A stretch of 33,653 nucleotides of DNA. Origin: Candidatus Zambryskibacteria bacterium RIFCSPHIGHO2_02_FULL_43_14. GTDB lineage: Bacteria > Patescibacteriota > Minisyncoccia > Phycocordibacterales > Zambryskibacteraceae. The translations under genes were made by a program, and so were the position numbers. This document shows, in pieces, positions 1 through 2,813 of the stretch. Below the pieces are notes generated by a model. That model was not told where the DNA came from, ran no database searches, and was given only the letters and a program-made list of their open reading frames with translations. The stretch lies in NCBI GenBank assembly GCA_001825315.1, contig MHVR01000009.1, positions 1 through 33,653 on the forward strand, read 5' to 3'. Numbering within the stretch: position 1 is the first letter of the stretch; the number at the start of each line of letters is the position of its first letter.

Positions 1-2813
1 GTGGTAGTGGAGTTGCCAAGCAAATTTGTATTGCCTTGGACAGTCAGATTACCACCGAGATAAGTGTTGTGAGCGATGATATCATTGCCGATGAAGTTGT
101 GCGTGCCTTCGACTTCGATGTCGTAAACACGTTCAGCAGGTTGTAGTTCAACTGCTACCACTCGCTCCCAGGCCGGATGTTTACCATGAGCCACGGCAAT
201 CATTGCTCCGGCTTTAATCTCACTTGCCACTATCCACTCCCCGCTCTTGACAAAATTTTGACCATCATATAACATGCGGGTATCAAGAAGTGTCCGTGGG
301 CCAACCGAACTCCGACCGCTCGCAAGAGGACTGGTGAGGGAAGTAGCTCTAAGGGCACTTTTTGCTTTCTTGGTAAATGTATAGGCCTTCGCCGAGAGAG
401 TACTTTCACGGAAATTTTTGTGCACTCCATATGCCTCTTGATGCGCCAATGAAAGTTTCCCAACACGACCGAAATGAATCTCTATATTTTCAAACTCGTG
501 TTTGATGACGGATGCAATGTGCTTATTATAACCAGTGTATTCTTCATCTATCACTAATTCGTGTATACGCACGCCATGTTCCACCATGTGTCGTACAAGC
601 GTCTCAATGCCCGCGCTAAAGAGTGCCACAATGAATCGCTTTCTATCATTGCAAGGAAGGGTGTTGCGTAATATATGCTTGAGTTTTTTGTCTATGGTAA
701 TGGAATAAGCATTTTCAGTATTGGCAATGGCAATCACGGAATCTTTGCCAAATTCTTCTATTTTGATCGACTGGTCAACCTCAAAGCGATATAACTTTTG
801 GTTTTTGGTTTTAATCGGTTCAGGATATTTGGTGCGGACAAAATATGGATGATTCTCCGTCGTACGGATGACTCTACCGGAGAGTGTGGTCAAGCGATAG
901 AGTGGTTTGATGCCCATGTTCATCAGAGCTTTGACTCGACTCCAGACGAACTGGCCACTAATCGGGTCCATGGAAGCGATCTCATCCCCTGCTGTGACAT
1001 CCTTAATCATCACTTCGTCGTAGTTGTAATCTTCCTCTTTTTCTCCTTTTCTACCTTTTTTCTTTCCTCGCCCGCCATAGCCTTGGCGACGGCGGGTTCT
1101 TCGTCGCAGTCGAGTATCAGCAGTGACACAATGGGTCGCTACGGCAAAACCAGCCACAGGTGAAGTGGTGGCTACTCCCACGTTGCCGTTCAGGTCAATA
1201 GTGAGAGCCGAGAGAGATGAAGTGGCTGTCCCCGCCACAGTGGTCGTAGCAAAGTACAAGTTTCCTCCCGCATTTCTGAAAGCCCATTGACTAAATCCTG
1301 CTCCACTAGAGAGAGCGAGTTGAGAAGCGGTGGCAGAGGTTGGATTTAATAACCAAGTTGGAGTGGTGGTACCGATGCCGACGTTGCCTGAACTATCAAC
1401 TACCAGGGCATTACCACCTACAGTGAGAAGCGAAGAGAATAGATTTGTTGAACTTGCGGTGGTGGAGAAGAAGTTGGTAGTGGTGGCGGAAGTGCCAGTG
1501 GCGTTGGTGAAGATGATATCGGTAAATCCTAAGGCAGTACCGTAAAGATTGGTGAAAGTCGCAGTGGTGGAGAAAAGGTTGGTGGTAGTGGCAGAAGTGC
1601 CGGTAGCTAGATCGAAAATAAGGTTAGAAAAGCTTCCCGTAGGACCAGAAATAGTAGCTCCGGTGAGAGTGGGGTTAGTAAAAGTGCCACCGTCAGAGAG
1701 TCTCGCGAGTCTGGAGGAATAGTTGTCTACATCACTCGAACTCTGGCGGGTCACGGTTGGGCGAGTATCAGTCAAAAGAACTTCTTCTCTCAAGGCCATC
1801 TGGTTTATAACCGGACCGGATGAATACACCACTACCGGAGAGTTTGTTCCACCAAAGCGAGGTGAAGCAGTATAAATTTGAGCGCGGACGTAGCTCTCCA
1901 GTTCTGTCTTGAGTTCACTTTTCAAAGATTCCAGATTTAAGAATTTTGACGATTCAGTTACTGCTATCGTCTGGGTGATTTGAGGTGGAGTAAAAGTCTC
2001 CGCCATCTTTAGTGGCGCCGAAGCAAAGAATGTTTTCTTTAGAGCAATATCCTTGAGATTGCGAAAACCGATAACAACATCGTCGAAGAATTTATCAATA
2101 TTGCTGAAGATAGAAGTGGCAACCAACTGTTCCCCCTGAACAAGATTAGCGGGGATAGAGGTAAGAAACTTCTTGCCGGCATTTGAGATATTCTCTAAAC
2201 TCTCTCGCACTTCAGTTGCAACCGAAGGGTTGGTGTGCTGAAGGGTAGCAAAGCCGGCACCTATGGAAACTAAAAGCGCCAGAGAGAGCGCTGTGAATTC
2301 TTTAAGTATGCGCGCATTCCAGATAGGTTCTACGTAACGACTCTTTTTTGACAGCTCGGGTAGCCGAGGTTTATCATCTTTTTCGTAAGTAAATACAGGA
2401 TTATTGAAAGATCTCGCCTCGCCCGCCGTAGTCTCTGACGAAGGCTGGGGCAAAGCAATCGGGAGCGAAGCCGGAGAATTTTCGTCGTGCTGAAGTCTGT
2501 CATTCGAATTCTCCAAGGTCTCGCTCCTCAAGGTCGGACCTTGGGAATCAGTATTTAGGGTCTGACTTTTTTCCGCGAGATCTTTGGATTCAGAGATTAA
2601 AGATTTTTTTACTTTTCCAAATTGTCGATTTTTCTTATAATCCAATAAAGATGCAAAATCAACGTACCAAGTTTTACCAATTAATCGTCCGGAAATTTTT
2701 TTTGCACGACAAAGTTGTCCGATGTAGTCACTCGCGTAACCAATTTTTTCTGCTGCTCGGATAGCCGAGATATATTCTTTATCGTCCGAAAAAATAGGCC
2801 TATTCATCAACAT
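1..2813 (-). CDS. Large surface/adhesin-like protein (3' end runs off window): N-terminal small HTH-like domain, one predicted TM segment, Thr/Ser-rich extracellular repeats, interrupted by an intein
   Basis: Manual reverse-strand translation from ATG at 2813 (or in-frame ATG 2807): MLMNRPIFSDDKEYISAIRAAEKIGYASDYIGQLCRAKKISGRLIGKTWYVDF..., TM-like FTALSLALLVSIGAGFATL, repeats such as TNATGTSATTTNFFSTTASSTNLF and GNVGIGTTTP. Checked codons at 2813, 1130 and 77 are all in the same frame. Absent from the ORF track, probably because it has no stop inside the window. Confidence 0.85.
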   Translation of the reverse strand, partial: MLMNRPIFSDDKEYISAIRAAEKIGYASDYIGQLCRAKKISGRLIGKTWYVDFASLLDYKKNRQFGKVKKSLISESKDLAEKSQTLNTDSQGPTLRSETLENSNDRLQHDENSPASLPIALPQPSSETTAGEARSFNNPVFTYEKDDKPRLPELSKKSRYVEPIWNARILKEFTALSLALLVSIGAGFATLQHTNPSVATEVRESLENISNAGKKFLTSIPANLVQGEQLVATSIFSNIDKFFDDVVIGFRNLKDIALKKTFFASAPLKMAETFTPPQITQTIAVTESSKFLNLESLKSELKTELESYVRAQIYTASPRFGGTNSPVVVYSSGPVINQMALREEVLLTDTRPTVTRQSSSDVDNYSSRLARLSDGGTFTNPTLTGATISGPTGSFSNLIFDLATGTSATTTNLFSTTATFTNLYGTALGFTDIIFTNATGTSATTTNFFSTTASSTNLFSSLLTVGGNALVVDSSGNVGIGTTTPTWLLNPTSATASQLALSSGAGFSQWAFRNAGGNLYFATTTVAGTATSSLSALTIDLNGNVGVATTSPVAGFAVATHCVTADTRLRRRTRRRQGYGGRGKKKGRKGEKEEDYNYDEVMIKDVTAGDEIASMDPISGQFVWSRVKALMNMGIKPLYRLTTLSGRVIRTTENHPYFVRTKYPEPIKTKNQKLYRFEVDQSIKIEEFGKDSVIAIANTENAYSITIDKKLKHILRNTLPCNDRKRFIVALFSAGIETLVRHMVEHGVRIHELVIDEEYTGYNKHIASVIKHEFENIEIHFGRVGKLSLAHQEAYGVHKNFRESTLSAKAYTFTKKAKSALRATSLTSPLASGRSSVGPRTLLDTRMLYDGQNFVKSGEWIVASEIKAGAMIAVAHGKHPAWERVVAVELQPAERVYDIEVEGTHNFIGNDIIAHNTYLGGNLTVQGNTNLLGNSTT
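66..1130 (-). other. Intein / Hint protein-splicing element (355 codons), Cys1 to C-terminal His-Asn, +1 extein residue Thr
   Basis: Starts CVTADTRL (block A-like), contains TTENHPYFV (block B-like TxxH), ends VYDIEVEGTHNFIGNDIIAHN followed by T (block F/G-like). Fully open in the host ORF frame; flanking exteins are FAVATH and TYLGGNLTVQGN. Confidence 0.88.

Follow-up and report, generated by a model that had tools for sequence, protein, structure and literature searches.

The window analyzed here, 33,653 nucleotides in length, is an entire contig, and its left end carries an element enclosed in a single open frame of 937 amino acids (2813..3, minus strand) that runs off the contig end. The host gene is therefore incomplete, and the absence of the element from the ORF track, noted in the preliminary description, is explained by this frame being open past the contig end. 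The minus strand of 66–1130 comprises exactly 355 codons, with CVTADTRL at the start and VEGTHNFIGNDIIAHN at the end, and the terminal IIAHN is followed directly by an in-frame Thr. The features of the locus are as follows.

66..1130, minus strand: intein, Cys1 to Asn355, 355 amino acids (translation, Pfam and TIGR profiles, PDB sequence match, fold match)
834..1130, minus strand: N-terminal half of the Hint splicing domain, residues 1–99, with Cys1 at 1128–1130 (profile, PDB match, model)
1044..1106, minus strand: Arg/Lys-rich loop, residues 9–29 (CVTGDTRLRRRR...), of low model confidence and found in most CPR members
840..863, minus strand: block B, TTENHPYF, residues 90–97, with the catalytic T and H94
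324..803, minus strand: passenger domain with a predicted RNase H-like fold, residues 110–269, between block B and block N4 (model, fold matches, invariant residues)
192..236, minus strand: block N4, WIVASEIKAGAMIAV, residues 299–313, located 3′ of the passenger (PDB alignment, motif)
66..239, minus strand: C-terminal half of the Hint domain, residues 298–355, ending in His354-Asn355
63..65, minus strand: Thr+1, the first C-extein residue (translation)
1131..2813, minus strand: host N-extein, 561 amino acids, ending ...GVATTSPVAGFAVATH, with a putative cytoplasmic start, a hydrophobic helix and GIGTTSP-type repeats
2241..2297, minus strand: putative transmembrane segment of the host, residues 173–191 (hydropathy 1.93)
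3..65, minus strand: beginning of the C-extein (TYLGGNLTVQGNTNLLGNSTT...), truncated where the contig stops

The translated element matches the PF14890 Intein_splicing profile over residues 36–355 (E=6.2e-17) and TIGR01443 intein_Cterm (E=7.5e-9), and gives weak matches to the Pfam PT-HINT and Hint profiles. In a sequence search of the PDB the closest entry is the NpuDnaB intein (4o1r, E=4.6e-10), with the SspDnaB intein also near. An AlphaFold model of the intein (mean pLDDT 83) again has 4o1r as its top PDB match (E=1.9e-7), and inteins and hedgehog Hint domains rank first in the fold search. The class-1 residue set is present (Cys1, T91-H94, H354-N355 and Thr+1), and block B residues T90, T91, H94, P95 and Y96 are invariant in the family alignment. 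With profile and structure matches far stronger than chance would give, and with the class-1 catalytic set complete, 66–1130 encodes a real intein, which we predict to splice. The preliminary description had called an intein here from Cys1, block B, the terminal His-Asn and Thr+1, all of which hold to the base; it had proposed a search against Hint and intein profiles and named the lack of a Hint-fold match as grounds for abandoning the call, and both the profile scores and the fold match above bear the call out. It had overlooked the unusual part of the element, a passenger of roughly 200 residues. The Arg/Lys-rich loop, just 3′ of block A, is conserved in CPR members and missing from DTLLPI-type members, and is possibly a DNA-binding element.

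The host N-extein contains one hydrophobic stretch (residues 173–191) followed by GIGTTSP-type repeats, and its N terminus resembles HTH_17 only weakly, below the cut-off (E=0.24). GIGT[TSAN] motifs are present in the host ORFs of 45 of the 55 complete family members. Related host proteins terminate in a Peptidase_S74 chaperone domain (L039, E=1.1e-16); this domain was not found in the window's own genome, where the host gene is cut off at the contig end. The host is predicted to be a membrane-anchored, surface-exposed repeat protein, which agrees with the preliminary description of an unusual intein host, and may serve as an adhesin or fiber.

Modeled together with 16 relatives, the passenger (residues 110–269) is a domain of high confidence (pLDDT 92.7, pTM 0.88) with β-β-β-α-β-α-β-α topology; in the model of the full intein, its orientation relative to the Hint domain is uncertain (pTM 0.51). 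Most of the PDB fold matches listed are RNase H-like (integrase cores, RNase H1 and RNase H2; best E=7.3e-4), and those in BFVD include phage RNase H, terminase RNase H-like domains, RuvC and integrases. The Foldseek scores are modest (best E 5.7e-4, TM-scores 0.4–0.5), so the RNase H-like assignment is a superfamily-level call. The passenger shares its predicted fold and strand-end acidic residues with the retroviral integrase core, RNase HI, RNase H2 and RuvC, but a PDB profile search found no sequence relation to any solved structure, and no Pfam model matches it. Residues D119, S121, E125, K151, D195 and Y198 are invariant in all alignment rows that cover them, including those of five free-standing genes, and H230 is kept in 22/23 aligned rows. 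Acidic residues lie at the ends of strands 1 and 4 of the model, in which a third catalytic carboxylate is not placed. Their invariance among sequences of ∼30–50% identity indicates selection on the passenger active site. On the modeled fold and this conservation, the passenger is probably an active nuclease, and it would represent a nuclease-like family of the RNase H-like superfamily that is missing from Pfam.

The passenger domain is common to 17 inteins. Its free-standing homologs, of 145–160 amino acids, occur in CPR genomes from other families of the class, where they stand alone in varied contexts with no consistent antitoxin partner beside them. An uncultured phage protein annotated as “Hint domain containing protein” (BFVD A0A6J5M7D6) is among the fold matches of the passenger and may have the same architecture.

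The distance from block B to N4 is about 200 residues in the window intein, compared with about 10 in PabCDC21-1 (6rpp). In the window and in most members with RNase H-like or NYN cargo, N4 (W..v.elk.G..IA) comes after the cargo, immediately 5′ of block F. By motif, the cargo precedes N4 in 14/17 RNase H-like and 15/19 NYN members, and in four further members N4 escaped the motif pattern yet lies after the cargo. In a minority of these (L069, L101 and L104) and in 7/11 members bearing toxin-antitoxin (TA) genes, the cargo follows N4 and occupies the canonical site or its vicinity. According to PMC6801210, every HEN domain of an intein sits at one conserved site, C35, and the paper poses the absence of others as a question. 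In the window intein the insert precedes N4 rather than occupying C35, between N4 and F. The passenger thus occupies an insertion site unreported for intein endonucleases under the published rule (PMC6801210). Profile searches detected no known HEN domain, LAGLIDADG and HNH included, either in the window intein or in 57 relatives (39 + 18 inteins scanned).

The NpuDnaB and SspDnaB mini-inteins (4o1r, 1mi8) have in common with the window intein the Hint fold and blocks A, B, N4, F and G, but they are without a large passenger, whereas the window intein has about 200 residues from B to N4, a Thr at +1 and a repeat-protein host. In PI-PfuI (1dq3) and TliVMA (7qss), as in the window, a nuclease-type domain interrupts the Hint domain, but there it is a LAGLIDADG domain at the C35 site (PMC6801210), in contrast to the RNase H-like domain before N4 seen here. 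Natural Hint domains of this kind can accept large inserts at a second site, and the window intein is a counter-example to the single-site rule that makes the rule testable.

Matches to the intein query occur in 34 of the 397 genomes of the order, and these include ordinary DnaE, DnaB, UvrD and SMC inteins, identified from their exteins. A profile-guided scan of named genomes yielded 458 related stretches, of which the best 78 are mostly from CPR MAGs, with others from Omnitrophota, Chlamydiae, Elusimicrobia, Nitrospinota and further groups, assignments that MAG binning can mislead. The typical insertion context is ...GIGTTSPxxxLHVxG[Q/H]|C...HN|TYxxGN.... Thr occupies +1 in 53 of the 55 complete members; the exceptions are the SMC intein L107, with Ser, and one member with Asn. 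The −1 residue is Q, H, L, K or E at 55/55 occupied sites; the contrast with empty sites draws on eight hand-picked ones and on related sequences, and its p-value is not used. L107 lies inside the SMC P-loop (GPNGSGK|C...HN|S). In an otherwise intact NYN intein (L010:1501-2760, the same as L082), Asn replaces Thr at +1; splicing of this member is doubtful, and C-terminal cleavage would be possible. In L083 the intein end GNDIVAHNTY recurs just downstream, resembling a partial duplication of the intein end.

Repeats of the same type without an intein are found in other genomes and represent empty sites; one of these, in L138, reads FAVAGN|TYLGGNLT, against FAVATH|intein|TYLGGNLT in the window. 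The preliminary description had suggested a check for empty-allele homologs, and these uninterrupted repeats provide part of the answer, although an empty allele of the exact orthologous host gene was not found in the genus. A genus-mate (G028) has two paralogous host genes, each with an intein at the window's site. Compared with the window, the exteins of G028 are 78–90% identical in DNA and the Hint halves only 57–67%, and its intein cargo is NYN rather than RNase H-like. Since the exteins are far closer than the Hint halves and the cargo class differs, the inteins at this site were not simply inherited with the host. A search of 50,697 phage records for a phage origin gave no match. On its sequence relationships, the window intein is a mobile-type intein and not an adhesin-specific maturation module, because empty repeat sites exist, a member occupies the SMC P-loop and relatives are found in dozens of MAGs from CPR, Omnitrophota and other groups.

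Other members carry different cargo in place of the RNase H-like domain. NYN domains were detected by profile in 18/39 other members. Several members have pairs of short genes antisense to the intein, whose own frame stays open throughout, and at least ten relatives probably carry toxin-antitoxin pairs antisense within a still-open intein frame. Pfam confirms both DUF433 and DUF5615, which we take to be a VapBC-like toxin-antitoxin pair, in L089, L108, L122, L123 and L133, and DUF5615 in L136. The pair of L131 consists of HicA and a weak HicB-like partner, L083, L118 and L120 encode a ParE toxin with an unnamed partner, and L126, L127 and L128 contain similar antisense pairs without profile support. 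NCBIfam provided no names for ten TA-like ORFs. Adjacent genes of type II toxin-antitoxin families thus occur in the cargo of relatives but not in that of the window, where a search for antisense TA genes found none. The window has a 121-amino-acid ORF at 798–1163 (plus strand) that is the antisense of its Hint region, and similar ORFs recur in relatives. In L089, which also holds a DUF433/DUF5615 pair, an extra insertion lies inside block G between THNFVA and GGIIAHN; this intein is possibly broken and was left out of the intact-intein count because its C-terminal block is additionally interrupted. In L084, an antisense DUF433-like gene and two DUF5615-like genes adjoin the intein N-half.

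On a tree built from the Hint domains alone, there are at least 18 changes of cargo class, against a minimum of 4 and a mean of 32 for shuffled classes; this tree is weakly resolved, with 9/55 inner branches starred. With this modest support, cargo classes appear clustered on the Hint tree yet repeatedly changed. The clearest examples of exchange come from inteins that share a MAG. Two inteins of one Peregrinibacteria MAG (L108 and L111) are 91–94% identical in Hint DNA, and one has a TA pair where the other has none. Two others, again from one MAG (L062 and L069), are 88% identical in their N-halves, with cargo similarity no greater than that of unrelated DNA and with the cargo at different positions. 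The cargo position of the family may thus act as a swap slot that takes an RNase H-like domain, an NYN domain or, in antisense, toxin-antitoxin genes.

Considered together, these data make it very probable that the window holds a cis-splicing class-1 intein of a CPR-centered family, with an RNase H-like passenger between blocks B and N4 instead of a homing endonuclease and with a swappable cargo slot. Class-1 inteins splice by an N-S acyl shift, transesterification, Asn cyclization and extein ligation. In the window, the N-S acyl shift would take place at Cys1, transesterification would be to Thr+1 and Asn355 would cyclize with the aid of His354; ligation of the exteins would then restore the continuous repeat ...FAVATH-TYLGGN... 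and release a 355-amino-acid intein with its nuclease-like passenger. The passenger may be an active, metal-dependent nuclease that was acquired from a short CPR gene standing on its own and was retained for helping the intein persist or spread.

The preliminary description favored a different role, that of a Hint/BIL-type maturation module cleaving or ligating the exposed protein within adhesin biology. BIL domains share with the window intein the Hint fold and an association with secreted-type proteins, and the surface type of the host, the weak PT-HINT and Hint matches and the non-nucleophilic Asn at +1 of L010 fit such a module. However, BIL domains lack a +1 nucleophile and have variable flanks, whereas the window family has both a +1 nucleophile (Thr in 53/55) and a conserved insertion context, and the reading was dropped on these grounds. 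Uninterrupted repeats, family members outside repeat proteins, among them the one in the SMC P-loop, and the non-orthologous inteins of G028 also speak against it. So does the ranking of PF14890 above all other profiles in the window intein and, apart from the NYN-bearing L107, in all A4/A5 members scanned; we give the module reading very little probability. A further reading makes the region a permanent part of the mature host, an outcome that the preliminary description held fatal to its call. This agrees with the region being in frame with the host, but the probability is practically nil given the complete intein catalytic set, and the empty repeats and the occurrence in unrelated hosts rule it out.

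The passenger could itself spread the intein from one repeat site to another, as a homing endonuclease or resolvase-type enzyme of an unorthodox kind; its nuclease-like fold, the conserved insertion context, the non-orthologous inteins at one site in genus-mates and an Arg/Lys-rich loop that could bind DNA would allow this. We think this unlikely: RNase H-like enzymes are seldom site-specific double-strand nucleases, the target sites are many degenerate repeats, the free-standing homologs are isolated in unrelated contexts and other members have TA pairs or no cargo. Decidedly unlikely is a degenerate intein, its splicing perhaps lost, in which an inert passenger merely stabilizes the Hint fold. 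A stabilizing role is described for degenerate HENs (PMC6801210), and the element lacks a homing endonuclease and has a host that looks dispensable, but every splicing residue is intact and the acidic residues of the passenger are invariant across sequences of ∼30–50% identity. As a working hypothesis, we prefer a general aid to the intein's persistence or spread over homing in the classical sense, for two reasons: other members have toxin-antitoxin pairs in the same slot, and the hosts look dispensable, so that the usual protection of an essential host site would be lacking. In a tentative extension of this hypothesis, RNase-type or antisense TA cargo would make loss of the intein costly, a form of addiction that could allow inteins without homing endonucleases to persist in dispensable repeat proteins from which ordinary inteins would disappear, with the window intein as the RNase H-like branch.

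The persistence of inteins is usually put down to homing endonucleases and to residence at indispensable sites of essential proteins. The family described here lies mostly in surface-type repeats, has cargo that is nuclease-like or toxin-antitoxin, and shows no known homing endonuclease among the scanned members. Within the open-licence literature, we found no report of inteins whose cargo is an NYN domain, an RNase H-like domain or a toxin-antitoxin pair and no paper joining an intein with an NYN domain or with DUF433, and searches for inteins with Parcubacteria, Patescibacteria or CPR yielded passing mentions only.

Several relatives depart from the contiguous arrangement of the window intein. 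Split inteins with genes between the halves were reportedly described by Dassa et al. in 2009 as “fractured genes”, and one relative (L039:3078-10199, G017) resembles these, whereas the window intein is contiguous. Its halves lie in two ORFs separated by three genes, which encode a Bro-N protein, a PD-(D/E)XK-like protein with a zinc ribbon and a weakly 23S rRNA IVP-like four-helix protein. In L018 and L096, the intein N-half follows the S74-like chaperone region of the host and is itself followed by a large insert with a zinc ribbon and a PD-(D/E)XK nuclease domain. The cargo of two Microgenomates inteins (L094 and L125) forms yet another class, akin to the large polyvalent protein-associated domain 3 (LPD3).
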